From NCBI GenBank assembly GCA_007117555.1, contig SKGI01000084.1:1-22483 (forward strand): 22,483 nt of DNA, in the 5' to 3' direction. Each line of letters opens with the position of its first letter. Within the stretch, counting starts at the first letter, position 1. The translations under genes and the position numbers were made by a program. Below are positions 738 through 22,483 of this stretch, piece by piece. The notes under the pieces are model-generated. The model made no database searches. It worked only from the letters and a program-made list of their open reading frames with translations, and was not told the origin of the DNA. This DNA is from Candidatus Izemoplasma sp. Lineage in GTDB: Bacteria > Bacillota_I > Bacilli_A > Izemoplasmatales > Izemoplasmataceae.

Positions 738-1780
738 TCTGTCACCTTCCTTCGCCAAGAGATAATCCCGATAAACAAGAGAATAATCAATGACATCACC
801 ACAAAGTAAATCCATGACAAGGTGGCACTATAGCCATAGCCTGTAGTGAGTGCAGGCGTTGACTCAGTTAAAATGAGCGTTCGAATATAAACAATCACTT
901 CATTCAAACTGAACACACTCATCGACACCACTGTAAAGACAACCGAAATGCTAATGAGTGGCATAATTGACGGCAACGTAATTTTCCAAAATGATTCCCA
1001 AGGACTCGCCCCATCAATCATTGACGCTTCATACACTTCTTTATCAATTTTTTGGAGTCCGGCAAGTAAAATCAAAATTTGAATACCCGCAAACCAAAGC
1101 ACCAGTAAAATCTCATCGAAAAGTGCTTGAATCGGATTGGCCAAGAAATCGCCAACATTGGCGATGATGATGTCAATGAACCGGTACTCACTAATAGAAG
1201 GTAAGGTGGTCGCACCTTGGTTCATCAGTTCACCGATGACCGGCCCAGAAGAAATAATGACCGGGAAAAAGAATACTGTCCGCCAAAAGCCTTTCCCGCG
1301 AATGTTTTGATTGATTAACATCGCAATGACTAAAGCAAACACAATCGTCACCGGCACATTCAACAACAAGCGTAATACATAGCGAATGAGAATTTGAACA
1401 AAGAAGGGATCCGATAAAAATGCGGCACGATAGTTGTTGAAGGCTTGAAACTCAAGGCGTAAACCAGAATCTTCTGCTGCATCGAAATACACTTTAAACA
1501 AGCTGAGATAAAATGTATTGGCAATTGGATAAAGTGCAAAAATCAAATACCCAACAATCCAGATTAAAATGAAACTTAAGCCAATAACACTCTCTCTACG
1601 ACGGTTTGTAATCGGCACATTCAGTCGATTGAATAAGCGAATGCGATGGTGATCAACATGCACAACTCGGTTGTGGACTAAGCGATGCAACAAACGACCG
1701 ATGGGTTGACGAATCTTACGGTCAAGGAAGGCTCCAATACGCGTTAAAAGCCGCTTAATGCGCGTTAATAAACGCTTCAT
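734..1780 (-). CDS. Carbohydrate ABC transporter permease, MalF type
   Basis: This 348-residue permease is the MalF-like partner of the MalG-type gene that follows, with a 4-base ATGA overlap. The start ATG at 1780 has a GGGAGGTG ribosome site 8 bases upstream and overlaps the DUF5696 stop. About 65 strongly basic residues precede the first membrane segment, beginning with a tandem KRLLTRI-KRLLTRI and rich in Arg and His. Around six hydrophobic segments follow. The ATPase-contacting EAA loop is visible near residues 250-275 (EVYEASMIDGASPWESFWKI). A substrate cannot be assigned. It may be served by the lipoprotein binding protein at 10931-12271, because the other binding protein already sits next to its own permease pair. 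That pairing is inference. Confidence 0.92.
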   Translation of the reverse strand: MKRLLTRIKRLLTRIGAFLDRKIRQPIGRLLHRLVHNRVVHVDHHRIRLFNRLNVPITNRRRESVIGLSFILIWIVGYLIFALYPIANTFYLSLFKVYFDAAEDSGLRLEFQAFNNYRAAFLSDPFFVQILIRYVLRLLLNVPVTIVFALVIAMLINQNIRGKGFWRTVFFFPVIISSGPVIGELMNQGATTLPSISEYRFIDIIIANVGDFLANPIQALFDEILLVLWFAGIQILILLAGLQKIDKEVYEASMIDGASPWESFWKITLPSIMPLISISVVFTVVSMSVFSLNEVIVYIRTLILTESTPALTTGYGYSATLSWIYFVVMSLIILLFIGIISWRRKVTE

Positions 1781-4140
1781 GGCGACACCTCCCTAACGAC
1801 GACTTGTTGGGGCTCAACCGCTACACCATCAATCACTTGAATAGTGGATGTATAGTTAACTAACAAAATAACCCCATTATCATAGGTCACTTGACTAAGA
1901 CCGATATCCGGGACTGTCCGCGCCACAATCGATGCCCCTTGCACGGCTTGAAGCGCTTCATTCACAAACTGATACTCCTCAATAATCTGATCTTGCCACA
2001 TCGAAAACTGTGTCGCATAAAGTGCTTCAATGTCTGTGCCCCGTAAAAGACTCGAACGGTTCTCTGTCAAAATATACGCTGGATAAATACCAAAGTCAAT
2101 CATCATCAAAAGCGGTGTGATGCCGAGACTGTTGAAATTTAAAAACTGACTGAACATCGACACATGACCACTTAAGACAATCGGCTTAAAGGGCACAAGA
2201 TCACTAAAATACGCAAGTTGTGAGTTAAATAATGCGGCATCAAAATAATCACGCATGTAAGGGAAGGCATACGCCATCGGACTCGCGTAATGGCCTATAT
2301 CTTCATACATGGTATAAATATCAGTATAATGACGCAACGCATCGCTACGTGTGTATGAATTCCGCTGATGGTAAGAAAAGAGTCGGTTCGCGATGTTTTC
2401 AAATAAGACTTCAACACCAAGCGCCCGGTAGTCTTCAAGATGGTCGCTTGCTAGACGGACACTTGTCGATGGATATAGTAAGTGTCGGTCTGTATACACA
2501 CATGTGTCACACGTCCTAGTCAATTTAAATCGGTTGACCCCTTCAGCCACATCGCTACGCGTTGTAATATTGGATGTCGCTTCGGTCGCGGTTTGATAAT
2601 TATTAACTAACAGCACGCGATGGCCATCTTCTTGAATGCCGTGCAGTGTCTCTTCAAAAGCACGCTTGCTGCCGATGCTGCGCTCAAAATTAACCGCTGC
2701 AGGGAGATGACCACTGTAGCCCCCTCGGTTCCAGCCGAGTAGTGAAATCGTTTGATTGCTCAAACCCGCAGTCATGAACGTATCCACCATGGTGCGCAGC
2801 CCTTCAAGCGAAGTCATCTCCACTTGGCGTGTGCCGATAAACGTACTTTGTGAATCGGCCATAAGCACTTGAAGATGGATGGGAATCGGGCCCGATGCAG
2901 GGGTTTGGGGTGTTAAATGACCTAGCCCAACCAAATACTGCTGGTACGTCCGAGCTAGCCCCACATAATCAGCCCGCTCATCCGCAAGAAATTTGTAATG
3001 GACTGTCACATCGTCTTTGCTTGCGGTATGGATGCGCATGGCACCACCCGTGCCATCTGAACTGAAGCTTTGGCGAAATGTCTGGTTAAAATCAAACTTC
3101 GTATACATGATGTTATAAGGAATGTTTGCGGCACCATTTGGATAAGCAAACAAGCGTGCATTCGTATCTCCTGATGCGATAACCCCTAAATACGCATGCT
3201 GTTTTACGCCATGAACTGCCCCAAAGACAGGCATGGATAATGGATAACTTGTGACCGATCTTCGTGTTGTAACAATCCCTTGATTCCCTCCATAAAACCG
3301 TTCTTCAAACGGTACAAGGAAACGCCCTTGATTGTCTTCATAACGAATCAAAGCCCCCACACCATCGGGAATAACCATATAACCGGGGATATCATCCATA
3401 TGGGTTGCCCCCATGCCCGGAAACAAAATCAGGCTGGCCAACCGAATGCGCTCGGGATAGCTTTCTTCAATGCTTTCAAATGGAATGTGCGCGGTTAACC
3501 CTGTTTCGGTCAACGTCACATGCAGTTCAAAACGAATGCCGATTTCAACTAATCCGAAATTAATCATTTGTTCTAAGGTGAAATCGCCTTCTAAATAGCG
3601 TGGATAGTTTTGTTGGCAAATACGACGTGTACAAAACCCCCCCACATAAACAGTAAGTTCTACTCGGTTATCTACGACCTGTTTTTCTATCACAAACTCA
3701 GTATCTACTAAACCGACATTTTGTCGCAAAGAATAATTCGTTTGCAAGTTAATGTAGTCTAACCCAACCCCACTACTAAGAAGCGGCGTAAACGTACCTG
3801 CATCCGGTTCGTCAATGGCGGTCGCAAACACATAGCCATTCACTTTATTCTCGACCTTAAAATTAAGTGTCTCAGGGTTCATATATAGGACAAACTGATC
3901 ATTTTCAAGTACCTGTTCGTCTGTTTCAAGAATTGGAATGATATGTTCAGGTGGGACTAAACTTAAATCATCCGGCTGATTAAAGCGCGACGACTGAAAC
4001 AACAAGTTCTCTAAGTAAGGCAATCGCTCAAGCGGAACATCCTCACTAAGTGGTGGTGCTTGACCCTCAGCCCGAACGATGACCCAAGCAGTCAAAGCTA
4101 TGAGGACAAATATCGAACTACGTTTAACGATCTGCAACAC
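1777..4140 (-). CDS. DUF5696-type secreted or membrane-anchored protein, possible glycoside hydrolase
   Basis: I chose the GTG at 4140 as start (787 residues). It has a GGAGGTG ribosome site exactly 7 bases upstream, whereas the in-frame ATG at 4164 lies inside the previous gene without such a site. The protein begins with a basic stretch and one hydrophobic segment (about residues 8-24), so it is exported and probably anchored. Residues about 70-410 look beta-rich. Residues about 420-700 look like an alternating alpha/beta barrel, and the end is a small beta domain (VTYDNGVILLVNYTS) like those closing many glycosidase barrels. I recognise it as similar to DUF5696 proteins, which have no established function. 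It contains exactly four cysteines as two close pairs (C170/C175 and C544/C547). It lies between an NHL-Yip1 protein and a permease pair. A glycosidase role is inference; a non-catalytic glucan-binding role is possible. Confidence 0.7.
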   Translation of the reverse strand: MLQIVKRSSIFVLIALTAWVIVRAEGQAPPLSEDVPLERLPYLENLLFQSSRFNQPDDLSLVPPEHIIPILETDEQVLENDQFVLYMNPETLNFKVENKVNGYVFATAIDEPDAGTFTPLLSSGVGLDYINLQTNYSLRQNVGLVDTEFVIEKQVVDNRVELTVYVGGFCTRRICQQNYPRYLEGDFTLEQMINFGLVEIGIRFELHVTLTETGLTAHIPFESIEESYPERIRLASLILFPGMGATHMDDIPGYMVIPDGVGALIRYEDNQGRFLVPFEERFYGGNQGIVTTRRSVTSYPLSMPVFGAVHGVKQHAYLGVIASGDTNARLFAYPNGAANIPYNIMYTKFDFNQTFRQSFSSDGTGGAMRIHTASKDDVTVHYKFLADERADYVGLARTYQQYLVGLGHLTPQTPASGPIPIHLQVLMADSQSTFIGTRQVEMTSLEGLRTMVDTFMTAGLSNQTISLLGWNRGGYSGHLPAAVNFERSIGSKRAFEETLHGIQEDGHRVLLVNNYQTATEATSNITTRSDVAEGVNRFKLTRTCDTCVYTDRHLLYPSTSVRLASDHLEDYRALGVEVLFENIANRLFSYHQRNSYTRSDALRHYTDIYTMYEDIGHYASPMAYAFPYMRDYFDAALFNSQLAYFSDLVPFKPIVLSGHVSMFSQFLNFNSLGITPLLMMIDFGIYPAYILTENRSSLLRGTDIEALYATQFSMWQDQIIEEYQFVNEALQAVQGASIVARTVPDIGLSQVTYDNGVILLVNYTSTIQVIDGVAVEPQQVVVREVSP

Positions 4141-6160
4141 GGTAATACACCTCCATGACGACATCCCGAACTAAAATCCCCAGTTCGTTCAAAAGGATAT
4201 ACACAATAAAGAGTCCCAACAAAGCCATGACCATCGTGAACGCTGAAATCATAATCGATGATACCGTTTCACTAACGCTGTAAAAGTGGGTCTCTTTGAC
4301 CATGAAAAAGAAATAGATAGCGCTGACACCTATCCCAATCACCCGCAAGAAATCAATTAAGAAGGCTTCATTATATGTCAAGAAATTAGAAAGAATTGTA
4401 ATGACTGGCAATGTGAGGAAAAAAGGTGAAAGGGCAAAGATGGTCGTAATATAAACATCACGGAAACGGCCTTCCCCTTCACGAATGGAACCAATCAGCG
4501 TGTTCGCCAACACAAATAGTCCAATCGGTAAAATAACTTTAACAATTTCTTCAAGCAAATTGATTTCATGTAAGTTGCGATGATTAAACAAAAAACTCAA
4601 CTGATAAATGTGGTGAATCCAAAGAAGAAAGAACAGCGCTAGCCAAATGGTTGCGGCATAAAAACTCACTTTCTTCTCCCGCTTGATCGCGTACGTTGCA
4701 TCGGCAGGATTACGCAAATAATTAAATACATACAATAGATCATCAATGAGAGTGACCTTATCACGAACCCGCCGTAACCCTTTTTTGAGTGGATCTATTA
4801 CAAAGTGGAAAAACTTTAACTTCAAGTTCACAACATACAAAAACAACAACGCAAACAACGCACCTAGTATCCAGCCAACATGATCAAGCAACCAGCGGTT
4901 GCGCACTTCCCAAAATGCATCGCTGTAACTGCCACGATCATACGCGAGCATAAACGCTTCGCGCGCTTCATCAAACTCACCTAACCCATAGTGCGCATTG
5001 CCAAGGCCGCGATGGGCCAAATCAAAGAAGTCATTCATACGTAAAACAAGTTCCCAAGGTTCTTGACTTTGCACATAAAATCCTTCTTGATAAAGCGCAA
5101 GTGCTGTATGCACCCGTTGTGTAAAGGTGGTTGGAAAGTATATTTGTAAAGTGCCTGCCGCACTGTCGAGTGTATAGATATTAAAATGCGAATCTACCGC
5201 AATGGCGGTCGGCGTGTTAAAAAGACCTTGGATTTGATTGCTGATGTCTAAGCCCCCAAACATAAACAACAAGTTCCCCTCAACATCATACTCATAAATC
5301 ATTCCAGCACGCGTCAACACATAGATGTTGCCGATGGGGCCTACGAATACATCGACTAGATCCGATGCGTTGAACATCGCAGGTAAAACATTTTGACCAC
5401 TGATGTTTAATCGTTTAACCCCGAAATTTTCAACCCCACGACTGACTGTATGAATCAAACCCCGGTTATCAATCGCCATGTTGGCGATTTCTGGCGGTGT
5501 TAAGTTAAACAGTCGGGCCCGTTGTTCTTCGGTAAAAAAAGTTTGTTGGAGTACAGTACGAAGTGTTGGGGCAATCGTATTCGTCCCAAAATAACCAAGA
5601 AACTGCCCCCCTGGACTAAACTGGGCTAACCCACGCGTTCCAAGATTTAAAATGTATACATTACCCCGTGTATCACTAATGATTTTATTCGGTTGAAACT
5701 CTTCTGTGCCAAAGAGTGGTGAATCAGGTCTTGTAAAGGTTTGGATGATCTCCCCCGTTGCGCTCAAACGATACGCCTGACGTGCAGCGCGGTCCGCTAC
5801 AAACACCTCACCCATCGCATTGACAAACACGCCGGTAGGATTGAGCAAAAAGTCGGCCCCAAAAATGTCAACGGTGTCTGATTCCATATCAAACACAATA
5901 ATTTGCCCGACACCGTCCACGCGTGTCGCAATGTAAATCACATTGTTCGCATCGATGTGAATATCTCTTGGCTCACCCAGTGAATGCCCCTGAATCTCTT
6001 GGACACTTAATAACGGTAAATAAGCTGTCTGAGTACGGACAAGACGATCATTACTCATCGTAAAAGTATGATAGCGGACACCTGTTTCTGCATTAATACG
6101 CGTACTAGAAAGCAGAAATAGCCCTAAAAGCGCACACAATATAGCAAACTTTTTCATCAT
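4124..6160 (-). CDS. NHL beta-propeller / TPR-like / Yip1 membrane fusion protein
   Basis: This 678-residue protein starts with a signal peptide ending near Ala24 (STRINA). Residues about 60-345 hold six NHL-type blades, each with a pattern like 'G.I/VYI/VAD....V..F' (for example GEVFVADRAARQAYRLS and GNIYVLTRAGMIYEYD), so a six-bladed extracytoplasmic propeller is likely. Residues about 350-420 resemble one or two TPR helices (HYGLGEFDEAREAFMLAYDRG). A membrane helix lies near 428-447. Residues about 460-660 form a Yip1-like domain with five hydrophobic segments. The start at 6160 overlaps the preceding permease stop, and a neighbouring ATG at 6157 is an equally possible start; the ribosome site is weak (GGGGTT). 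The stop overlaps the next gene by 17 bases. NHL propellers usually bind proteins, RNA or glycans; the role here is unknown. A sensor or organiser of the importer is speculation. Confidence 0.75.
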   Translation of the reverse strand: MMKKFAILCALLGLFLLSSTRINAETGVRYHTFTMSNDRLVRTQTAYLPLLSVQEIQGHSLGEPRDIHIDANNVIYIATRVDGVGQIIVFDMESDTVDIFGADFLLNPTGVFVNAMGEVFVADRAARQAYRLSATGEIIQTFTRPDSPLFGTEEFQPNKIISDTRGNVYILNLGTRGLAQFSPGGQFLGYFGTNTIAPTLRTVLQQTFFTEEQRARLFNLTPPEIANMAIDNRGLIHTVSRGVENFGVKRLNISGQNVLPAMFNASDLVDVFVGPIGNIYVLTRAGMIYEYDVEGNLLFMFGGLDISNQIQGLFNTPTAIAVDSHFNIYTLDSAAGTLQIYFPTTFTQRVHTALALYQEGFYVQSQEPWELVLRMNDFFDLAHRGLGNAHYGLGEFDEAREAFMLAYDRGSYSDAFWEVRNRWLLDHVGWILGALFALLFLYVVNLKLKFFHFVIDPLKKGLRRVRDKVTLIDDLLYVFNYLRNPADATYAIKREKKVSFYAATIWLALFFLLWIHHIYQLSFLFNHRNLHEINLLEEIVKVILPIGLFVLANTLIGSIREGEGRFRDVYITTIFALSPFFLTLPVITILSNFLTYNEAFLIDFLRVIGIGVSAIYFFFMVKETHFYSVSETVSSIMISAFTMVMALLGLFIVYILLNELGILVRDVVMEVYYRVADR

Positions 6161-7032
6161 TTCAACCCCGAATGCGCCATCGTGTTCATCACTTTATTTT
6201 GCAAGAAAATAAAGATGATAATGTTCGGCACGAACATGATTAAACTGGCCGCTGCCATCATCCCTTGTCCGGCGACAGGGTTACCGACAAGTGAGGCCAA
6301 GGTAGAGAAGTAAAACGAAAGGGTCTTCATACTTTCATCATCGACATACAAGGTCGAACCAACGACATCATTCCAAATAAGTTGAAACGATAAGATACCA
6401 ACTGTCGCCACTGCAGGCGCAATAATTGGCATGATGATGCGCAAGTATATTTGCATCTCACTCGCCCCATCAATCTTTGCTGATTCAATGACCTCATTCG
6501 GTGTCTGATCAATAAATTGTTTCACTAAAAAGAGGCCAACAGGCAACGCGATGAGGGGTAAAATTAAAACGAGATACCGATCGATGAGTCCAAGTCGTGC
6601 AATCGTCAAATAACGGGGAATCGTTACAGCAATCGGTACGAACATCAACGCAAGCGTGTTAATTTCAAACAATAACTTCTTCCCTTTAAACTTCAACTTA
6701 GACAGCGCGTACGCCGCCATCGTCGTCACTAATATACTTAGAAAGACACCGACCGATGTCACAAGTACGCTGTTAAATACATAACGGCTAAAAGGAATGC
6801 CTGTATTCGCTGCGACCGACACCAAATTACGGAAATTATCTAACGTTGGCCGGCGCACTAAAAACCGGGGCGGAAAGGCAAACAGTTCATTCATCGGTTT
6901 AAACGCGTGGCTAACAATAAACAACATCGGTAATGATACAAAAATAGCCATTGGGATTAAGACGATAAAAAACTTAATTTGACTCCGATGAAAATGTTTT
7001 GGATTAATTTTCATGCCACTAAACTTAGCCAT
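6157..7032 (-). CDS. Carbohydrate ABC transporter permease, MalG type
   Basis: This 291-residue inner-membrane permease has about six hydrophobic segments, the first near residues 20-45. Its EAA loop (ESAKIDGASEMQIYLRIIMP, about residues 187-206) is the site that docks the ATPase. The start ATG at 7032 follows a GGGGGGAGA ribosome site, and only 11 bases separate it from the previous permease. It ends with an ATGA overlap onto the NHL-Yip1 gene, so the two are translationally coupled. With the MalF-type gene before it and the fused binding protein before that, it forms the membrane part of one complete sugar importer apart from its ATPase. Confidence 0.93.
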   Translation of the reverse strand: MAKFSGMKINPKHFHRSQIKFFIVLIPMAIFVSLPMLFIVSHAFKPMNELFAFPPRFLVRRPTLDNFRNLVSVAANTGIPFSRYVFNSVLVTSVGVFLSILVTTMAAYALSKLKFKGKKLLFEINTLALMFVPIAVTIPRYLTIARLGLIDRYLVLILPLIALPVGLFLVKQFIDQTPNEVIESAKIDGASEMQIYLRIIMPIIAPAVATVGILSFQLIWNDVVGSTLYVDDESMKTLSFYFSTLASLVGNPVAGQGMMAAASLIMFVPNIIIFIFLQNKVMNTMAHSGLK

Positions 7033-7043
7033 CTGTCTCCCCC

Positions 7044-7928
7044 CTAATCCCGCTCGCCAAGCAAGCTGAATGTGACTTTACTAATGCTGTAAATCATAAT
7101 GAGAAGCACTACACTCACCGCTGAGGCATAACCCATTAAAAACCGAATAAAGCCAAAGTCTTCAATGTGATTAACCATCAGCTGACCGGCATACTGCGGT
7201 GTCGGGTTTGCGCCTGAAAGCTGCACACCGATCGCACCGACTTGGAAGGTGCCCACCACCGACATCACGGCCCCAAATAACATTTGCGGTTTCATAGACG
7301 GAATGGTGATGTAAAAAATTTCTTGCCAGCGGTTTTTTAAGCCATCCATATAGGCCGCTTCATACAACGTTTGATCAATATTCATAATCCCCGCTAACAT
7401 CGCAAGAAATCCTACACCCATACTCCCCCATAGGGATACGACAATCATAATGCTCATCAAATACTGTGGTGAAGTCAGAAACTGAATGGGTTCTTGTACA
7501 AGACCGACATTGAGTAACCAAGCGTTTAAATAGCCGGTTGCATTACCAGAAAAGAGCACTGTCCAAACAACCGCCATCGCGATACCAGCCGTCATCGATG
7601 GGCTGTAAAGTACTATCGCTAGTAATGTGCGGGGACGGTGCGGAATTTGCGCGAGCATCCAAGCTAAGACAAAACTCATGCCATAACCAATCGGTCCCAC
7701 AATAAAGGCAAAGCGAATGGTATTAGGTAAGACATGTTGCATGAAAACCTCATCGCGTGTTAACAGCTCAATATAGTTTCGTAACCCAACAAATTCAGGG
7801 GTTTCAATTGTATTAAAATAAGTAAAAGACAAACCAATCGCCAACAAAACGGGTATGACGATAAACGTCGCAAACAGCACAACATAAGGTGTTAAAAACC
7901 ACCAAGGTCCATTCATTTTTCTAATCAT
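7044..7928 (-). CDS. Carbohydrate ABC transporter permease, MalF type
   Basis: This permease belongs to the MalF/UgpA-like binding-protein-dependent family. The second in-frame ATG, at 7928, is the likely start: the AAGGAG ribosome site is 7 bases before it but only 1 base before the ATG at 7934. That gives 294 residues and an 8-base overlap with the end of the fused binding-protein gene. A first membrane segment begins around [19 protein letters not shown], and the EAA loop is [20 protein letters not shown] in the last third. It pairs with the MalG-type permease 11 bases downstream. Proximity makes the fused binding protein its likely substrate donor. Confidence 0.93.
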
Positions 7929-10872
7929 GGCCATGCTCCTTCAGCCAGGCGTCAATTGTTTCGATCGTTGGGACCCGGTATGGTCTCAAAATCGCACCAT
8001 CTTCAACATAACCAAACTCTTCCATGCGGAACAAAATTTCACGGTTGGCAATACGAACGGCTCGATCAAGCGTAATGCGTGGGTTGGCATCTTCAAAGAC
8101 GATGCGGTTCCAAGCATTCGAGATTTCTCGTTCAACCATGTAAGCCCCTGGAATGCGTGACGCTTCAATCGCATAGTCCCATTGATTCAAAATGACTTCG
8201 ATATGTTCTGGCGGTAAAGGCAATTGTGCAAATGCCTCAAGATTGGCGGTGTTCCACAAAAACTCTGTCCCATACGTTGTTTGTAAGCGCAGGGCGAAAT
8301 CAACTTGGACTGCCGTTGACATCCACCACTCTAAAAACGCCCATGAATCATCCGGTCGTGTTGTCGTGGATAAAATCATCGAAGACTGAGCTCCCGATGC
8401 CGCATAACGACGCACAGAACCATCTTCTTGAAGCACACCTGGGTGTAGCGCGATATTCCATTTACCGGCAATTTCTGGCGCCGCAATGGTTAACTGTAAG
8501 TAAGTGGCTAAATCACTAATCCCAATCGGCAACGTTCCAAAGCGGAAATGATTGTAAAAATTCGGCACTTGTTTAGGTAAGTTATAGAGCGTAAATAGCT
8601 CTGTCATCAAACGAATACCTTCAAGATTGGCTTCACTGTTAATGACGGTCGACATCCCATCTTCTGCATACAAACTGCCCCCAAACTGATGCAAGAAAGG
8701 CAATGTCGCCACAAACGGCTTAAAGCCACCGTGAAAAGCGATTGGGTGGAAGAAATTCATCCCTAAACGTTGTAGTTCAGGTAAAATTTCTACAACGTCG
8801 TCCCAAGTATCAGGAACAGGTAAATCCAACGCTTCAAAAATATCGCTCCGGTAAAAAGTGACCCAGAAATTTTGCGTCAACGGCAACCCAAACATGCCGT
8901 CTTCAAACGCATAAGGAATCATCACCCCAGGCGCAAACTGCGCAACCGTATCGGCATAACCGGAAAACTGTCTCAAATCAAGACTTGCCCCCCGAATGGC
9001 AAACTCATAAGGAATCCAGTGATTTACGCCAAGTGCGATGTCAGGTGCGCGATCGGCCGCACTTGCTAAAATGAGCTTGCTTTCATCAGGCATCAATGAA
9101 AGTCTTACCCGAATACCGGTTGCGGCGGTGAAATCATTGTCGATGATTTGTTGCATAATTTCGACATATTGACGCGGGTAATTGGCCCATACTTCAATCA
9201 CATCTTCTTCGGCTCGACCTGCTGCATAATCATGCGCTGTAAAAGACAAGAAAAACCGACGGACCGTTTCAAATGTACGGACCACAATATTGCTTGACGG
9301 TCGTGGCGCCCTGTCTTCACCTGTCACAAACAGCGCTTCTAAATCAAGGCCGTTTTCAAGGAGCACTTGCGCTGTACTACCTAAAAGCTGCGCAGTTGAA
9401 GCATCCCCATCCGCAAGCATCAACATCCTATTAGGAATGTCGTTGATATCACTGCGCAACGTTTCAAGTTGTCGAATCGCTAAACGAATGTTTGTGAGCT
9501 CCCCAGGTTCATGATGTTGACTGTACTGTTCAAGTTCCGTATTGATGTCTTCTAACGCTTCTATCCAGCGAGTCAGCCGGGGTTCTATATCGGGAATAAA
9601 CTGGACAAGTCGCCACGTTCGGAACCGGTCAACGGTATTCCCAGTCAAACGTTTGATTTCTAAACTCAATTCTGTAATTTCATCCATCATAGTCAAAATA
9701 TTCTCATACGCATTTCGGTACGGCTCTACGACGACTCTTAGACCAATTTCATGGGTGCCCGCTTCAAGATGAAACAAAAACGGCTCGTCATCACCGATGA
9801 GTTTACGCTCAAAACGGTTTGTAAAATGAAAAGGCACCATGGCGGCTTCCTCAAAAGGAACCGAACCATTAATGGTCAGCTCTCGGAAAACCGGCATTTG
9901 CATTAAATAATTTTGGCGATAATTGAAACCAAGATGGTATAACCCTGTCTCTTCGACTTCTACCTTAAAATACACGGTATCATTTCCGTGACGGAAACTC
10001 CAGCCATCAATCGTATTCAGTCGCAAATAACGGGAATCATACGCCGTAAAACCAGGATCCCTTTCACTGCGAAGACGGGTGGATGGATTGCTTTTCGATG
10101 TGAACGATTCAGCGCCGATAATCAACGTGTCTTGACCGCGTGGAACGCCTTCATGGGTGGCAAGATAGGTCGCATAACTCGGTGGGCTCTCAGGTGTCGA
10201 TGCGGTGAAAGTCCCTAACATAGCTTGCCCACGTAAAAGCTCAATTTCGATGGTGTTGATCCCTGCTTCAAGTTTAAACGTTAGCGGTTGAGCATTGAGC
10301 GCAGTGCCATCATGAAAGAACGTCGTTTTCATCGACCGAACTTTAATCGAATTGGGCAAAATTTCATGACCGTAACGATCCGTCGCAAACGTTTCACGAT
10401 CAAACACCCAACGCGTAGGTAAAGGTATGACACGACTTTCTTCAAACTGAAAAACGCCGTTGACACGCACAGCAAGCGTATTTGGCAAAATGTTCGCCCC
10501 AAGATCCATCTGATCCACCGCAAAGCGATAACGGCCCGCTTCGGGTGCGTCTAGCTCAAATTGAATCCGCTCACCCCGGCTCAAAGACACTGCCGGTTTG
10601 GCATATTCACTTGGTCCATCAGGACTAAGTGGGATATCATACTGGTCGGCATGGACTTGAATACTCGTACCCGCCGCAGGGAGTTGTGGCGCGCTTTGTC
10701 GTACTTGAAAGTACTGATTCGTATCCGTATCTAAAGGGGCAATCGCGTCTACCTTGATCACCGCCTCACGTGTACTTGTTCTACCAACACCCACCCAAAT
10801 GAGCGTGAGTACAAGTACAAGGCTTAATACCCACCACTTAGGTTGTCTTAATTTTTGTAAGTAACGCATCAT
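7921..10872 (-). CDS. Membrane-anchored extracellular solute-binding protein fused to two carbohydrate-binding-like domains
   Basis: I place the start at the ATG at 10872 (or the adjacent ATG at 10869), which follows a GAGGTGAT ribosome site. The longer frame to a TTG at 10911 runs through a hairpin. The product is about 983 residues, roughly twice the size of an ordinary solute-binding protein. Residues 12-30 form an N-terminal membrane anchor. There are no cysteines, so it is not a lipoprotein. Two beta-sandwich-like segments follow (about 75-225 and 250-385), each with patterns common in carbohydrate-binding modules, such as [13 protein letters not shown] and [16 protein letters not shown] helical, coiled-coil-like stretch spans about 385-525. 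The C-terminal 430 residues are a family 1 (MalE-like) binding protein ([19 protein letters not shown] through [11 protein letters not shown]). Two dedicated permeases follow. A long glucan may be held by the N-terminal domains and passed to the binding domain; that is inference. Confidence 0.85.
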
Positions 10873-10930: not shown

Positions 10931-12271
10931 TTAGTTTTGCATGGCCTCTTGAACCATTTGATTGAGTCTTTCTTCCCATTCACTTGCAAATGTATCCGGT
11001 GTCACTTCATTATTAGCAATACGTTCCCAGTAATTATTATCTTCATTGCCGACCCACTCCCAGAACGCTTTGTAGCCGGGTAGCCATTTGTCGACATCAG
11101 GTCGTGCTTGATCTAACAGTTCAATACTTTCACGTAACCCTTCAACATAATCGATAAAGATTTCAGCACGTGCCCAAACTTCATCATACTCAGCAATGGG
11201 GTAACGATCTAAGTACAGATCGCCACGTTCTTCCATCAAGTCAAGACGTGTCAGCCAACCTTGTTTGCCAAATGTCATCCATTTTGCGAGCAAGTAAGCT
11301 TCTTCAGGGTGTTCAGCTTGTGATGACACAACGATGAAGTCAAGAATGGTTGGTGGGAACTGTCCTGCATCCCCGCGAGGATAAGGCCAGAAACCAACAT
11401 CAAAGCCATACTCTTCTAACATCGTATCGATCATCCACAAGTTCCAAGATCCATCGATGCTCATCGCAGTATAGCCAGCAAGCCAAGGCCAAACATCGCC
11501 AATTTCAGCCAGTTCTTCTTCTGTATGAGACGCTGGAATACCCCGTGCCCATAGATCAAGTTTTGTATCGTAAGCGTCAATCCAAGCTGGATTGGTAAAG
11601 TTAAACCGCTCACCATCCCATGTGTTGTAACCGATAGTTTCATCATCTAGCATGGGGAAGGTTGTCTCAAAGTCGAGATCGCCAAACCACGGATCGATGG
11701 CATACACCATATCGTTTTCGCCAAGCACACGGATTTGTTCGGCTAAAGCAATAAAGTCATTGTAGTGCCAGTCTTTTGGTGGGATGGGCACATTGTAAAA
11801 ATCAAGTAATGTCAAGTTGATGTAAATACCTTTAATAAACTGAAATGATGGAATCCCATAACGGCCTGAGCCGTAAATGGCTGTTTGATCCACTTCTGGA
11901 TACACTAAAGCTGTGTCAGGATCGGCATCCCAGAAAGCTGAAATATCAAGTAGCATCCCATTGTCATAACCCGTGGGTACATTATCAATCGCAAAAACTT
12001 CAGGTAGAACGTCACCCGCTTGGGCATTGAGGAGACTTTCAGTAAAAGCAGCCCCAGCACCGGTAATATCCTGACGTAATTCGACAGTAATATTGGGGTA
12101 TTCGAGCATAAAAGCATCGATGAGACGTTGATTCAGTTCTTGATCGCCCCAGTCGGCATAGCTCAGCACGATGTTTCGTACAGGTATTGTATCGCCATTG
12201 TCGTCGTCACTACACGCCATAAGGACAAACGCGCCGATAAAGATTAGCAACAAGCTAAACCATTTTTTCAT
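10931..12271 (-). CDS. Extracellular sugar-binding lipoprotein of an ABC importer
   Basis: This is a family 1 (MalE-like) solute-binding protein that captures sugars at the cell surface for import. The start ATG at 12271 is preceded by AGAAAGGAG at good spacing; the longer frame to 12292 has none. The 446-residue product has a lipoprotein signal with lipobox LMAC, so Cys20 is the lipidated residue, followed by an acidic SDDD linker. The body shows the usual features: an N-terminal beta-alpha start (VLSYADWGDQELNQRLIDAF), an INLTLLDFYNVPIPPKDWHY segment typical of sugar binders, and a C-terminal segment with several Trp residues. It has no adjacent permease of its own. It could serve the second permease pair at 1-1780 or compete with the fused binding protein. 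Hairpins flank the gene on both sides. Confidence 0.92.
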   Translation of the reverse strand: MKKWFSLLLIFIGAFVLMACSDDDNGDTIPVRNIVLSYADWGDQELNQRLIDAFMLEYPNITVELRQDITGAGAAFTESLLNAQAGDVLPEVFAIDNVPTGYDNGMLLDISAFWDADPDTALVYPEVDQTAIYGSGRYGIPSFQFIKGIYINLTLLDFYNVPIPPKDWHYNDFIALAEQIRVLGENDMVYAIDPWFGDLDFETTFPMLDDETIGYNTWDGERFNFTNPAWIDAYDTKLDLWARGIPASHTEEELAEIGDVWPWLAGYTAMSIDGSWNLWMIDTMLEEYGFDVGFWPYPRGDAGQFPPTILDFIVVSSQAEHPEEAYLLAKWMTFGKQGWLTRLDLMEERGDLYLDRYPIAEYDEVWARAEIFIDYVEGLRESIELLDQARPDVDKWLPGYKAFWEWVGNEDNNYWERIANNEVTPDTFASEWEERLNQMVQEAMQN

Positions 12272-12296
12272 AATAAACTCCTTTCTTATCATGGGT

Positions 12297-12364: not shown

Positions 12365-15300
12365 TTATTCTTCTGCAGGACCTGATTCCATTGTACCATT
12401 GAAGACGAGCTCAGCATCGACGAATTCGCCTTCGACTTCGACTTCAAGGGTGACATTGGCTAAATTAAATGTTTGGGGCGCATCTTCACCCGCAAACAAC
12501 ATCCCCATTTCAAACTTCAGTTGCGCTGGCACGCTGTAGTCAATTTCTGCATCGTCTAAAGTAAAGATTACTTCATAAGCTTCTAAATCACTATCGACTT
12601 CAAGCGTCTCCATGTGGTATGGCGTCCAGCCGCCACCACCGTGGCCAATTGCTAAAGTGATTTCACCTTCAACGGAAGCGCTCGCATAAAAACGTAAGCG
12701 ATACGTCGCACCCGTTTCAAATAAGAAAGAACCTTCATTGTCTGCACCTGTGCCAAGGGCAAAGGCATCTTGGATCACTTGCAGTTGCCAGTTTTCCCAG
12801 AAATTGATGGCTGTGATATTAACTGTCATTAGGTTATCCGCAAATGTCGCTTCTGCAGCGGAACCTTCCCAGTCGTTCACAAAGACACGCCAACCTGGAT
12901 ATTGTGGCTCATCGTTTCCAGGATCAGGGTCTGGATCAGGGTCAACCGCTTCGCCTGGTTCCATATTGCCATTGAAGACGAGCTCAGCATCGACGAATTC
13001 GCCTTCAACTTCAACTTCAAGGGTGACATTAGCTAAGTTAAACGTTTGGGGCGCATCTTCACCCGCAAACAACATCCCCATCTCAAACTTAAGCTGCGCT
13101 GGAATGCTGTAGTCGATTTCTGCATCGTCTAAAGTAAAGATTATTTCATACAGTTCTAAATCCGCATCGACTTCAAGAGCTTCCATGTGGTATGGCGTCC
13201 AACCGCCACCACCGTGGCCAATCGCTAAGGTGACTTCACCTTCAACGGAAGCACTCGCATAAAAACGTAAGCGATAGGTCGCACCCGTTTCAAATAAGAA
13301 CGAACCTTCATTGTCTGCGCCTGTGCCAAGGGCAAAGGCATCTTGGATTACTTGCAGTTGCCAATTTTCCCAGAAATTGATGGCTGTAATATCAACTGTC
13401 ATGACGTTGTCTTCAAACGTCGCTTCAGCTGCAGAACCTTCCCAGTCGTTCACAAAGACACGCCAACCTGGTTTTTGTGGTTCATCGATACCAGGATCTG
13501 GATCGGGGTCTGGGTCAACGCCTTCACCAGGTGCCATCTCACCATTCACAAGAAGACCTGCATCGACGAACTCGCCGTCTTCTTCAATTTCTAGTGTTAC
13601 GTGGCCAAGACGGAATTGTTGTGGGGCAAGCGCATCACTAAAGAGCATCCCCATCTCAAGCTTAAACTGACCAAGTACATCATAATCGCCTTCCGCATCG
13701 AGTGTGAACACAATCTCATGATGGGTCATCTCAGGACCGACTAAAATGCCTTCCTCAACAAAGTAAGGCGTCCAGCCACCGCCTGCATGACCAATCGCTA
13801 AGGTGATTTCACCAACCGTAGAGGCCATGGTATTGAAACGGACGCGGTAAGTCCGGCCTGCTTCAAACTGGATAGACCCTTCATTGTCTTCACCAGTGCC
13901 AAGCGCAAAGGCATCTTGGATAACTTGGAGTTGCCAATTTTGTGAGAAGTTAATCGCAGTAATGTCAAGGACAAGCATGCCATCCTCACCATAAATGTGC
14001 GCTTCAGAACCTTCCCAGTCATTGACGAATGCACGCCAACCCTCAAGGGCATAGACAGTGGGGGCTTCAGCCATATGGCCGTTGAAAATTAAATCAGTGG
14101 CGACGTATGCTTCGTCTTCAAGAACATCAATTTGTACGTTGGTCAAGTGGAAGCTTTGTGGGGCTTCAAGACCGCTAAACAGCATCGCCATTTCAAGTTT
14201 AAACTGCGCAGGTACACTATAATCGCCTTCTGCATCGAGCGTAAAAATGATTTCATGTGTTTCCATAGTTGTAGTGACGGTAATGTCATCCTTAACAAAA
14301 TAAGGATGCCAGCCGCCCACTTGATGGCCAATGGCTAATGTAACATCGCCTTCAACAGAAGCCATCGCATCAAACGTAACACGATACGTTTGACCCGCTT
14401 CTAAATAAAGCGAACCTTCATCAACATCTCCAAGACCCATCGCATACGCATCTTGGATAATTTGTAATTGCCAATTTTCCCAGAAATTAATGTTCGTCAG
14501 TTCAACCGACATCACGTTATCTTCAAAAGTCATGTCAGCGGCTGAACCATCCCAGTCATTGATAAATAGACGCCAACCAGGATACTGAGGGAGTTGCATC
14601 GAATCATCGGGTTCAATGACCGTGATAATCCGTGTAACGGTTGCAACATTACCCGCTTCATCGCTCACTGTGTAGACTACGGTATATTCGCCAAGTTCGT
14701 CTACATTAACATCCGATACAATGTGCTCAAGCGTCAAAGTAATTTCGCCATCGACATTATCCATCACCGAAACGCCCGCGAGCGGATCAAAGGGTTGACC
14801 GAGTGGAATCGAGACATCTGTCGCACCACTAATGACCGGTGGAATCGTGTCTTCAATATCGTCAATCGGTACGATGGAAACATTATCAAGGTAAATCGTC
14901 GTTAAATAATTATCCGGTCCGACCGTTCCTTTTTCAAAAAGAATGGCCCCATTCTCATTGGTCTCTTGCCCCATAATAAACTCAAACGAATACGTTTCCA
15001 TGTCCGTAGTCAAGTCAAAAATATCCGTTTGGCCTGGTTTAAAGTTATTAAACCAAGGTGGACCATCGAGCAGTTCACCAATTTGAACATGAATCGAACG
15101 TGGGAGTACAGAACGGGCATCAAACGAAACACGATAAGCTTGCCCTTGTTCAAAGGTAATGCCAGTGTTTTCTAGGCGCGGCTCCCACATACCACCGCTA
15201 ACTGAGTGAATCTCAATTTGGAGCTCACCATCGACAACTGTGTACGTTGCATTACCGCCTTCAAGGCCAGTCGTGGTAGTCCAAAATGCCATACCGAATG

Positions 15301-15661
15301 TGAAGTCACCGTTAGAAACCATGTCATCGCCGATGTCATCGGGGTTCACTACGACAAACAAGTAACGGGTTTTTTCTGTCCGGTTGCCGGCCGCATCTTC
15401 AATCGCATAGCGCAGGAAGTAACTGCCTACTGCATCGACATTAAATGTACCGGTCACAACGATTTGGTCGGTAATATCGCCGTCCGTATCGTCAATGGCT
15501 GTGACACCATCGAGGGGATCAAATTCTTCACCGACAAAGATGGTGATGTCTTCAACACCCGTTAAAACAGGTGGGGTGGTGTCTCTTGGGCTGACTTCGC
15601 CACAAGCAACAACCAAAAAGCTAAACCATACTGTGAGTAAAACGAGTAATACTTTTTTCAT
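12365..15661 (-). CDS. Multi-CBM4-like surface lipoprotein with DUF5011 domains, putative beta-glucan-capture protein
   Basis: This 1098-residue protein starts at the ATG at 15661 after an AAGGAGG ribosome site. Its lipoprotein signal has lipobox VVAC, lipidated at Cys20. Domains in order: an Ig-like DUF5011 domain (about 28-107, with EEFDPLDGVTAIDDTDGDIT), a CBM4/9-like module (about 113-266), a second DUF5011 domain (about 271-350), then four CBM4-like modules starting at residues 361, 540, 731 and 922. The last four share PGWR.F.NDW, a NW(Q)LQ.IQDA core, an LAIGH segment and conserved aromatic residues. Linkers before modules 3 and 4 carry Asp-Pro repeats (VDPDPDPDPG). No catalytic domain is visible. 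CBM4 modules are known to bind beta-1,3-glucan, xylan or cellulose; laminarin is preferred here because of the enzymes upstream. It would act as a Gram-positive-type counterpart of SusE/SusF surface glycan binders (inference). Confidence 0.85.
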   Translation of the reverse strand: MKKVLLVLLTVWFSFLVVACGEVSPRDTTPPVLTGVEDITIFVGEEFDPLDGVTAIDDTDGDITDQIVVTGTFNVDAVGSYFLRYAIEDAAGNRTEKTRYLFVVVNPDDIGDDMVSNGDFTFGMAFWTTTTGLEGGNATYTVVDGELQIEIHSVSGGMWEPRLENTGITFEQGQAYRVSFDARSVLPRSIHVQIGELLDGPPWFNNFKPGQTDIFDLTTDMETYSFEFIMGQETNENGAILFEKGTVGPDNYLTTIYLDNVSIVPIDDIEDTIPPVISGATDVSIPLGQPFDPLAGVSVMDNVDGEITLTLEHIVSDVNVDELGEYTVVYTVSDEAGNVATVTRIITVIEPDDSMQLPQYPGWRLFINDWDGSAADMTFEDNVMSVELTNINFWENWQLQIIQDAYAMGLGDVDEGSLYLEAGQTYRVTFDAMASVEGDVTLAIGHQVGGWHPYFVKDDITVTTTMETHEIIFTLDAEGDYSVPAQFKLEMAMLFSGLEAPQSFHLTNVQIDVLEDEAYVATDLIFNGHMAEAPTVYALEGWRAFVNDWEGSEAHIYGEDGMLVLDITAINFSQNWQLQVIQDAFALGTGEDNEGSIQFEAGRTYRVRFNTMASTVGEITLAIGHAGGGWTPYFVEEGILVGPEMTHHEIVFTLDAEGDYDVLGQFKLEMGMLFSDALAPQQFRLGHVTLEIEEDGEFVDAGLLVNGEMAPGEGVDPDPDPDPGIDEPQKPGWRVFVNDWEGSAAEATFEDNVMTVDITAINFWENWQLQVIQDAFALGTGADNEGSFLFETGATYRLRFYASASVEGEVTLAIGHGGGGWTPYHMEALEVDADLELYEIIFTLDDAEIDYSIPAQLKFEMGMLFAGEDAPQTFNLANVTLEVEVEGEFVDAELVFNGNMEPGEAVDPDPDPDPGNDEPQYPGWRVFVNDWEGSAAEATFADNLMTVNITAINFWENWQLQVIQDAFALGTGADNEGSFLFETGATYRLRFYASASVEGEITLAIGHGGGGWTPYHMETLEVDSDLEAYEVIFTLDDAEIDYSVPAQLKFEMGMLFAGEDAPQTFNLANVTLEVEVEGEFVDAELVFNGTMESGPAEE
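12368..14581 (-). repeat. Four tandem CBM4-like coding repeats; the last two nearly identical in DNA
   Basis: The units span 14581-14051, 14044-13514, 13471-12941 and 12898-12368, each about 531 bases, taking the PGWR/EGWR codons as the left edge. The spacing is 537 bases between units 1 and 2 and exactly 573 bases (191 codons) between units 2 and 3 and between units 3 and 4. The 36-base difference corresponds to the inserted Asp-Pro linker. Units 3 and 4 agree at roughly nine bases in ten by eye, with most differences at third codon positions, while units 1 and 2 are more diverged. This is the pattern of a recent in-frame duplication. Confidence 0.9.
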
Positions 15662-20319: not shown

Positions 20320-22483
20320 TTAAGAAGCTGATCTATTCTTCCAAAAATCTTTAAGCAAATCGATCATCATCTCGCCGTGTTCTACCGTTTGAACTTGCCA
20401 GTGTGCTGGCATGAGTGAACGGTAAAGTGTCGTGTCATAACGGGTATCTAGTAAAATCGCGATGCCTTGATCAGTCGCTGTGCGGATGACACGCCCAACC
20501 GCCTGAATGACCTTATTCATCCCAGGAAACGTATACGTATAATCGTAACCGTTAAAGCCGCGTTGATCAAAATACTCACGTAGATGTGCGGTTTGTTTAT
20601 TAAAGGCAGGTAAGGCGACCCCGACAATTAAAACCCCCGCTAACATATCGCCCACATAATCTACGCCTTCACTAAAACTGCCGCCCAATACAGAAAACAT
20701 CAATTTTGAGCGTTCGCCTCGGGTCTTAAATGTTTCGATAAATGTGTCCCGTTCAAAGGTCGTCATCGACCGCCTTTGGACCACAACATCGTAGCCTGTC
20801 TCATCAAAATCTTCAAGCACCATATCCATGTACGCATAGGAAGGGAAAAAGACAATATAGTTGCCCGTTTTCGCTTCAAGCATGGCATACAACGTGTCGA
20901 TGATATGTGTGACACTGCGTGGTCGATCGCGGTATTTCGTCGATGTCGTCGCATCCACAAACACACCAAGATGACGCGGATTAAATGGACTTGGAACTTC
21001 AAAGTGTTGGCCTTTTCCTTCCGTTAATAAGTCGGCGAAATAGGTGACGGGTTTAAGCGTGGCCGAAAAAAATACCGCGCCACCGCCCGCTTGGTCAAGT
21101 GTCTCATTTAAATGCTTTGCCGCATCAAGGCAAACAATTTCTACTGCGGGATCTAAGCCTTGGTCATTCGTCGTATACACAAAACGAAACGCTGCATTGT
21201 AATATTCACTAATGCGCATAAATTGTACCAACAAGAAATACCCTTCACGAATCGGCTTACGCATCGGATGCTTCTTATGGTCTTGAAGCCACTGATCAAA
21301 GCGGACCATCGTCTGGTGAACGTTCTCAAGCAACGTATTGTCAAGGGCGTTCTCGACATGATAATGCGTCTTGATGACGTCATAGTGAGCGATGCGGTCA
21401 TGAATCGCTTCAATCACTTTTTCAAGCTGCCGCGCAAGCCGTTTGACACGGTCCGTTTCACACTGTTTGGCCAAAGTTAACAGTGACGCAACATCCAGTC
21501 TAGCGGAATACATCGAGCGCGAACGTTCGACGAGATTGTGCGCCTCATCGACTAATAGCTTCGGTTTGAACGCGCCTTCTTCAAAAAACCGAATTAGGCG
21601 GATGCGTGGATCAAAGACATAGTTGAAGTCACAAATAATCACATCGGCGTGCAAGGCAATTTCAAGGGCAAACTCATGGGGACAAATCGTATGAAACTCA
21701 CCATACTGTTTAATGAGGTGTGCCGCATACACATCATCGTGCACAAACACATCTTCAAGCGCCGCACCTAAACGATTGTAAAAGCCTTTTGCATACGGAC
21801 AAATGTCTGGGTCGCAATCGACTTCATCGCGCAAACACATGGTTTCTTTTGAGTTGAGCGTCAGCGCTTTAATTTTAAGACCGTGTGCTTTAAGACGATT
21901 AACCATCTCAAGGGCAATGGTCTTTCCAGCATTTTTAGCGGTAAGATAAAACAGTTTTTCTTTGGCATCGTTTAATGTCTTAAGCCCTGCAAATAAGCCT
22001 GCGATTGTTTTACCGATGCCTGTGGGGGCAGTGGCATACACGATTTCCTTACGGATAAGCGTCTGATAGACGGCCCCCATAAAATGATACTGTCCTTCAC
22101 GAAAAGCTGGATACGGAAATGTTAGTCCTTCAAGGGTGCGTGTTTTTTCCGCTGCGTGGCGATCCATTATATCGACCCAATCAAGATACCTTGTGAGGGC
22201 CGCTTCTATTTGTGGTTTCAATGTCCCCATGCGTAGTTGTTTTGTGAATGTTTTAATTTGACGACTTTCTGTATGAATATATGTCAGCTGGCCTATAACA
22301 CTTTTGATCCCATGCATCAGACCATACAAATACGCATAAAATTTGAGTTGCATCATATGGGCAGGATATGTATCTTCTTGAATAATCGATAAATCGGTCG
22401 CGGTACTTTTTATCTCTTCAAGCACCGTTTTACCGGCTTGATTTAAAACCCCATCAATCTGGCCAGTGATGTGCACATCATGA
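20320..22483 (-). CDS. PD-(D/E)XK nuclease plus Fe-S XPD/DinG-type DNA helicase (5' end outside window)
   Basis: The frame is open to the window edge: His and Asp codons precede the GTG at 22476, so about 720 C-terminal residues are present and the true start lies outside. Numbering from that GTG, residues about 5-50 match the core of a Cas4/RecB-like PD-(D/E)XK nuclease: GQID (Asp8), LEEIKS (Glu21, Lys23) and QLKFYAYLYG (Gln43, Tyr47). The superfamily 2 helicase follows, with Walker A ATAPTGIGKT (148-157), DEAH (310-313), FFSATLKP, GSFSEGVDYVGD and QAVGRVIRT. Four cysteines in the right place (Cys214, Cys221, Cys226, Cys265) should bind a 4Fe-4S cluster as in XPD and DinG. It probably unwinds damaged or branched DNA in repair. 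Nothing links it to the sugar genes, and a terminator separates them. Confidence 0.9.
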   Translation of the reverse strand, partial: HDVHITGQIDGVLNQAGKTVLEEIKSTATDLSIIQEDTYPAHMMQLKFYAYLYGLMHGIKSVIGQLTYIHTESRQIKTFTKQLRMGTLKPQIEAALTRYLDWVDIMDRHAAEKTRTLEGLTFPYPAFREGQYHFMGAVYQTLIRKEIVYATAPTGIGKTIAGLFAGLKTLNDAKEKLFYLTAKNAGKTIALEMVNRLKAHGLKIKALTLNSKETMCLRDEVDCDPDICPYAKGFYNRLGAALEDVFVHDDVYAAHLIKQYGEFHTICPHEFALEIALHADVIICDFNYVFDPRIRLIRFFEEGAFKPKLLVDEAHNLVERSRSMYSARLDVASLLTLAKQCETDRVKRLARQLEKVIEAIHDRIAHYDVIKTHYHVENALDNTLLENVHQTMVRFDQWLQDHKKHPMRKPIREGYFLLVQFMRISEYYNAAFRFVYTTNDQGLDPAVEIVCLDAAKHLNETLDQAGGGAVFFSATLKPVTYFADLLTEGKGQHFEVPSPFNPRHLGVFVDATTSTKYRDRPRSVTHIIDTLYAMLEAKTGNYIVFFPSYAYMDMVLEDFDETGYDVVVQRRSMTTFERDTFIETFKTRGERSKLMFSVLGGSFSEGVDYVGDMLAGVLIVGVALPAFNKQTAHLREYFDQRGFNGYDYTYTFPGMNKVIQAVGRVIRTATDQGIAILLDTRYDTTLYRSLMPAHWQVQTVEHGEMMIDLLKDFWKNRSAS

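Follow-up and report, generated by a model that had tools for sequence, protein, structure and literature searches.

Why would the genes of a bacterial sugar importer be interlocked with those of two large exported or membrane proteins, one combining an NHL propeller with TPR and Yip1 regions (the propeller protein) and the other belonging to the DUF5696 family? This question is raised by a contig of Candidatus Izemoplasma sp. (SKGI01000084.1 of GenBank assembly GCA_007117555.1), whose 22,483 nucleotides were analyzed as a whole and are called the window here. A preliminary description made from the letters alone had singled out five genes at 1777..10872 that overlap or lie no more than 11 bases apart, i.e., those of a membrane-anchored solute-binding protein (SBP) of ca. 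980 residues (SBP980), two permeases (A and B), the propeller protein, and the DUF5696 protein, and the gene junctions and Pfam assignments confirm this arrangement on the - strand. We propose, with a probability of roughly 0.6, that this block represents a conserved and general unit for the import of glycan oligosaccharides.

The boundary originally drawn around the five genes did not hold. Starting from SBP980, permease A follows with a 14-base overlap, permease B after an 11-base gap, the propeller gene with a 4-base overlap, and the DUF5696 gene with a 41-base overlap. This tight coupling extends past the end of DUF5696 (1777) into a second permease pair, D and C, with a 4-base overlap between the DUF5696 and permease D genes, so that each junction from SBP980 to permease C is either an overlap or the 11-base gap. 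A closed five-gene unit is thus ruled out by the permeases that come after DUF5696, and we describe a unit of seven conserved parts instead.

Seven parts in one fixed order

Loci were collected by scanning the contigs of named genomes with a DUF5696 alignment, which gave 336 encoding stretches, the best 80 of which were kept. Together with the window and 20 stretches from further genomes, chosen where DUF5696 or propeller genes were already known (not an independent sample, with possible species overlap with the 80 named loci), they form a set of 101 loci whose parts were called by seven profiles built from the loci themselves. All 84 loci with enough flank, i.e., at least 6.5 kb before and at least 2.5 kb after DUF5696, show the order SBP980, A, B, propeller protein, DUF5696, D, C (84/84). 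The window is not among them, since the contig ends within its permease C. Counted part by part within contig limits, SBP980 was present in 88/88 and the propeller protein in 97/97 loci (permeases in Table 1); permease D failed our position rule in L075, where its open frame extends far upstream, L076, and L079, though the order test nevertheless includes these three.

The hosts of the 84 loci comprise Izemoplasmatales, Haloplasma, Acholeplasmataceae, Bacillaceae, Paenibacillaceae, Erysipelotrichaceae, Lachnospiraceae (Clostridia), and Chloroflexota. Recurrence of the order in 84/84 other loci is more than chance would give and rules out a chance cluster or an oddity of the window. Only two plasmid records matched, and the names given by PGAP spell out an identical order on both: ugpC, SBP, two permeases, YIP1, DUF5696, and two permeases on Paenibacillus cellulosilyticus plasmid NZ_CP054609 (18201-27424), and GH43 (a glycoside hydrolase [GH] family), SBP, two permeases, NHL protein, YIP1, DUF5696, two permeases, and two SBPs on Butyrivibrio fibrisolvens pNP243. 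The NHL and Yip1 regions form one protein in 87 loci and two neighboring genes in 10, a split also seen in Butyrivibrio. Proteins that are fused in some genomes and separate neighbors in others are usually functional partners.

As a side observation, the P. cellulosilyticus copy (L112) lies next to several LLM-class flavin-dependent oxidoreductases and extra SBPs with no glycosidases there, and its substrate may be other than plain glucan.

Linkage across whole genomes

Of 392 genomes, 107 matched DUF5696 at E 0.001 and 56 exceeded the Pfam cut-off (among the matches listed), of which we counted the 49 with a strong match of at least 186 bits; the propeller profile was found in 48 genomes, all within these 49 (again among the matches listed). 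Because at most three candidates were scored per genome, 13/97 DUF5696 places first seemed unlinked, and 12 genomes were then scored fully. There, a same-strand propeller gene precedes 41/45 DUF5696 places by no more than 6 kb and SBP980 lies upstream of 39/45, while DUF5696 lies within 6 kb of 59/64 propeller or Yip1 places and downstream within 9 kb of 40/46 SBP980 places. What full scoring left unlinked were large parts at contig ends, one propeller match of 18 bits (G024:C58), and a locus of genome G017 that is discussed below. The two large genes, tied to the importer in the preliminary description by their position in the window, are thus linked to it elsewhere as well (41/45, 59/64, and 84/84) rather than scattered.

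DUF5696 copies occur at up to seven places in one genome. Two genomes of 1.3 and 2.3 Mb (G066 and G211) have seven DUF5696 places each, some of them partial, and G066 also has a β-1,2-type copy of the unit (L115). Partial DUF5696 matches of 35-55 bits in open reading frames (ORFs) of ca. 600-660 aa were seen, among the matches listed, in G180, G199, G355, G368, G411, G162, and G284; these seven genomes are over the Pfam cut-off but have no propeller match, were left out of the counts, and possibly represent a related family.

A constant core with changing enzymes

With reference enzymes scored at 80 bits or more, 49/101 loci carry enzymes of β-1,2-glucan types (PF10091 proteins, SOGP, GH35-like) and 24/101 those of β-1,3-glucan types (GH16, GH161, GH30, GH5). 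No locus (0/101) has both, and 28/101, several of them short contigs, have neither. We take PF10091 proteins to be GH144 and assume β-1,2-glucan to be the substrate of GH144, SOGP, and such GH35 proteins. Divergent copies of the unit adjoin NamZ, GHL10, NAGPA, and DUF4127 genes, or GH13 or GH31 genes, as well as GH43 in Butyrivibrio. A glucan-only system is ruled out by the NamZ, GHL10, NAGPA, GH13, GH31, and GH43 neighbors, among them enzymes of α-glucan or peptidoglycan type, so the glucan substrate that had been put forward fits the window, through its GH161 and GH30, but not the unit in general. The enzyme sets thus differ between loci whereas the core does not, and a set of fixed order in distantly related bacteria that is reused with different enzymes suggests an undescribed machine for pieces of glycan polymers.

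In the window itself, the GH161 protein, for which no Pfam family was found, matches 9qqk over its full length (residues 9-1029), while the GH30 protein has 2wnw as its best PDB match (E 2.5e-97), followed by lysosomal glucosylceramidases. A signal peptide is not visible by eye on either enzyme, and breakdown of the imported glycan is therefore probably cytoplasmic, as judged from these protein sequences. In the consulted part of PMC6484121, GH161 beside GH30 and GH16 is assigned to laminarin use, and the GH30 of Bacillus weihaiensis is predicted to be secreted.

Binding proteins, permeases, and propeller protein

The unit shares with CUT1 importers (MalEFGK2 type, e.g., the Listeria innocua β-1,2-glucan importer with Lin1841) a solute-binding protein and MalF- and MalG-type permeases, both pairs of which are BPD_transp_1 proteins with EAA loops. 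SBP980 begins with a membrane anchor that is followed by a region of ca. 560 residues without family assignment and then by the solute-binding domain (SBP_bac_1 at residues 584-869 of the 996-aa form, with a TTG start that would give 10911); this C-terminal part resembles Lin1841 (5ysb, E 3.3e-13). CBM_35 was marginally under the cut-off in three SBP980 homologues. A lipobox pattern is present in 1/85 SBP980 and 4/95 DUF5696 proteins, which keep an N-terminal hydrophobic segment without it, and in 64/67 relatives of SBP2, a second binding protein that adjoins the unit as a frequent but not constant partner. As a rule, the unit comes with additional binding proteins.

Permease A is the most conserved part (mean identity 0.71, 63 loci), and the A/B pair is better conserved than the D/C pair. 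The EAA-loop glycine is retained in all four classes. In a permease tree of 28/101 loci, A (24/24) and B (26/26) form single clades and C (22/25) and D (21/22) nearly so; its 15 rows labeled DEC are 12 low-scoring cassette permeases and three outsiders (two from L083 and one from L105). In the window, the first membrane segment of permease D is preceded by a basic N-terminal extension of ca. 60 residues, and Bacillaceae permease D proteins are ca. 60 residues shorter.

In the window's propeller protein, neither Yip1 (16.6 bits, cut-off 28.6) nor TPR reaches its cut-off; Yip1 does so in L106 and L108 and is present in the precomputed Pfam assignments of many homologues. That the propeller/Yip1 and DUF5696 proteins sense bound glycan and control transport or expression, instead of being structural parts of uptake, seems quite improbable to us: Pfam scans found no cytoplasmic signaling domain in either, and both genes stay between those of the permeases regardless of the regulator present.

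A gene for the ATPase subunit was not found by Pfam in the window operon, with the metagenome-assembled genome (MAG) being 51% complete. A crude motif scan detected ATPase-like ORFs in 6/112 loci, outside the seven-part core, and ugpC directly adjoins one copy, that of P. cellulosilyticus.

DUF5696, a remote relative of GH129 glycosidases

Homologues of the DUF5696 protein begin at the position equivalent to 4140 (787 aa). Structure prediction, done on single chains, gives it an N-terminal β-sandwich, a (β/α)8 barrel, and a C-terminal β domain, i.e., the fold of GH129. Profile A4 matches 8rzk (E 3.4e-11) and 5wzq (E 7.3e-4) of this family, while the single-branch profiles A1 and A3 reach only E 0.15 and 0.021, and identity to GH129 is 14%. 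Unlike the GH129 enzymes NagBb and ZgGH129, the DUF5696 proteins are not free-standing but linked to importer genes in the loci seen. PF11308 (Glyco_hydro_129) matched neither in 149 genomes nor in control genomes, so its absence is not shown thereby; for this reason, active-site positions were mapped only via HMMER alignments to PDB chains.

Could DUF5696 work as a glycosidase at the cell surface, trimming either the polymer or side chains of it right before import? Besides fold and profile match, this is favored by position 581, which is acidic in 177/221 members (65/82 fused-type but 2/10 split-type loci) and corresponds to D486 of ZgGH129, as placed by extending an alignment and read with the roles that we assume for the catalytic acids of GH129. 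Likewise, D or E at both 429 and 647 are found in 79/82 fused-type loci and at 682 in 221/221 members. Yet 429 and 647 are both acidic in 0/10 split-type loci, position 682 lies in a helix and not at a strand end (DSSP), position 621 following strand β5 is proline in 213/221, and the unit accompanies enzymes for unlike polymers. None of the 11 columns that are invariant across 26 diverse members is D or E. An active enzyme is therefore doubtful in our view, and so is the cutting of a polymer envisaged in the preliminary description, although the GH129-type fold speaks for it. DUF5696 is a remote relative of GH129 glycosidases whose barrel-end acids are not kept family-wide, most likely a glycan-binding or structural subunit that stems from a GH129-like glycosidase and not an enzyme of one fixed reaction.

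One uptake machine or two importers

In the mechanism that we propose, the ectodomains of propeller/TPR and DUF5696 proteins would form a surface platform that holds the membrane-tethered SBP980 beside two MalFG-type permease pairs, both of which would be driven by a shared ATPase of UgpC/MsmX type and import parts of one polymer. Lipoproteins and outside enzymes would supply oligosaccharides to the importer. In the window, the unit would carry cargo of laminarin type, namely β-1,3-gluco-oligosaccharides with β-1,6 branches, which GH30 and GH161 could degrade inside the cell. We infer the contacts among the seven products, the holding or feeding of the SBP by DUF5696 and the propeller protein, and the shared polymer from gene order, anchoring, and shared inheritance. 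Only tentatively, and with less than even odds, do we extend this to a single four-permease assembly, i.e., two coupled ABC importers with a propeller/TPR/Yip1 scaffold and a repurposed GH129-fold subunit, that would be a widespread counterpart of SusCD and re-specialized for β-1,2-, β-1,3-, and α-glucan or peptidoglycan-type fragments by enzyme swaps.

Alternatively, the operon may encode two separate ABC importers, one made of SBP980, A, and B and the other of SBP2 or a later SBP with D and C, with the propeller protein and DUF5696 serving one of them or acting outside transport. Each permease pair looks complete and, by its EAA glycine, ATPase-competent, extra binding proteins adjoin permease C in some loci (L069, Butyrivibrio), and the better conservation of A and B as well as the retention of D and C only in G017 would fit two importers. 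Independent importers would be expected to reshuffle, however, and the position of both pairs around propeller protein and DUF5696 is fixed in 84/84 loci despite differing enzyme sets, which makes this explanation unlikely.

Several observations weigh against the general import unit as we describe it. The G017 locus (G017:C3, L118, 8891-12005) consists of GH30, a 343-codon DUF5696 remnant, intact permeases D and C, GH16, LacI, and GH16, and full scoring found no propeller protein or SBP980 in this genome. Since D and C persist here after an apparent natural deletion of the front half, the two permease pairs can probably work apart; this is the sole locus that speaks against strict interdependence. 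That all five genes are needed together, as first suggested, is thus backed by tight linkage but not absolute. Moreover, order and linkage were tested mostly from loci anchored on DUF5696 and with profiles from those same loci, and correlations of distance matrices (0.80-0.95) were not controlled for species relatedness. The acids 429 and 647 kept in fused-type loci leave room for catalysis. Finally, the seven products are placed in a single physical complex by inference.

Comparison with known systems

Known CUT1 importers are described without the two permease pairs, the tethered SBP of ca. 980 aa, and the propeller/Yip1 and DUF5696 proteins seen here. Glycosidase-fold or extra membrane subunits that transporters need are known from SLC3 heavy chains (rBAT, 4F2hc) and MusI of the Corynebacterium maltose importer, which may be compared with the unit by analogy only. 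SusCD systems of Bacteroidota resemble it in logic, i.e., a constant uptake core, changing glycan enzymes, and several copies per genome, but the unit has ABC-type permeases instead, and no Pfam family of TonB-dependent porins or SusD was among the 12 window proteins scanned.

Parts of the unit may have been described before. The consulted part of PMC6484121 reports GH161 clusters that, like the unit here, contain no ATPase gene, including one of A. laidlawii with GH161 beside two permeases without SBP, adjoining a GH94 cluster with an SBP-containing ABC transporter, and B. weihaiensis with GH161, GH30, GH1, and GH16. The A. laidlawii locus may be the same import unit, partly described, although that part of the source, compared by text only, differs in not mentioning DUF5696 or Yip1/NHL for the Acholeplasma and B. 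weihaiensis loci. The passages seen of PMC5128808 describe a GH30/GH1/glucanase locus of B. weihaiensis and mention no importer of this type, and those of PMC10318527 describe one ABC importer for Blautia producta. In the open-license PMC literature, we found no mention of DUF5696 or PF18952, so print elsewhere is possible, and no related paper on a YIP1 family protein with ABC transporter and glucan.

Should the parts indeed constitute one machine, an importer type that is absent from the literature found would take up polymer fragments in many bacteria of soil, gut, and sediment, gene neighborhood would predict its substrate as it does for SusCD in Bacteroidota, and a function could be assigned to the DUF5696 and NHL/Yip1 proteins. 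The β-1,2-glucan version also occurs in culturable bacteria (Bacillaceae, Paenibacillus), in which the question is open to direct test.

Gene content of the window

The window is contig C24 of its MAG, and its nearest named homologues are from Acholeplasmatales and Izemoplasmataceae MAGs. The main genes all lie on the - strand and are transcribed in the order helicase, GH30, GH161, lipoprotein with a carbohydrate-binding module (CBM), SBP2, SBP980, permease A, permease B, NHL/TPR/Yip1, DUF5696, permease D, and permease C up to the contig end (Table 1). Rfam and ARAGORN scans of the window gave no matches.

Table 1. Coordinates of the proposed import unit and adjoining glycan genes in the window
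Feature	Position	Strand	Evidence
Permease C (MalG-type), 271 aa, cut by contig end	3..815	-	BPD_transp_1 37.7 bits; after permease D in 91/91 loci with enough flank
Permease D (MalF-type), 348 aa	734..1780	-	BPD_transp_1 38.1 bits; 91/94 loci
DUF5696 protein, GH129-like fold, N-terminal membrane anchor or signal	1777..4164	-	DUF5696 454.6 bits
NHL-propeller/TPR/Yip1 membrane protein, 678 aa	4124..6160	-	NHL 25 bits (cut-off 20)
Permease B (MalG-type), 291 aa	6157..7032	-	BPD_transp_1 48.5 bits; 95/95 loci
Permease A (MalF-type), 296 aa	7044..7934	-	BPD_transp_1 42 bits; 93/93 loci
SBP980, membrane-anchored binding protein	7921..10872	-	SBP_bac_1 51.7 bits
SBP2, lipoprotein binding protein	10931..12292	-	SBP_bac_1 52.6 bits; lipobox pattern in 64/67 relatives
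Lipoprotein, 1098 aa, Ig-like and CBM_4_9 domains, repeated C-terminal module	12365..15661	-	CBM_4_9 99.8 bits; Bact_surface_Ig-like 112.2 bits
GH161 glucan phosphorylase, 1038 aa	15683..18799	-	PDB 9qqk 'GH161A' E 6.2e-233
GH30 glucosidase, 442 aa	18796..20124	-	Glyco_hydro_30 259.6 bits

A DinG/XPD-like helicase gene (Helicase_C_2, DEAD_2; 20320-22476) lies on the same strand 195 bases ahead of GH30 and is probably unrelated to the import unit. The 1098-aa lipoprotein, whose translation shows a lipobox, carries, after its Ig-like and CBM_4_9 domains, about four copies of a module of ca. 170 residues ('VFVNDWEGS...NFWENWQLQVIQDAFALG'); it is a probable glucan-binding surface protein, judging from its domains, and relatives of it occur near other copies of the unit.

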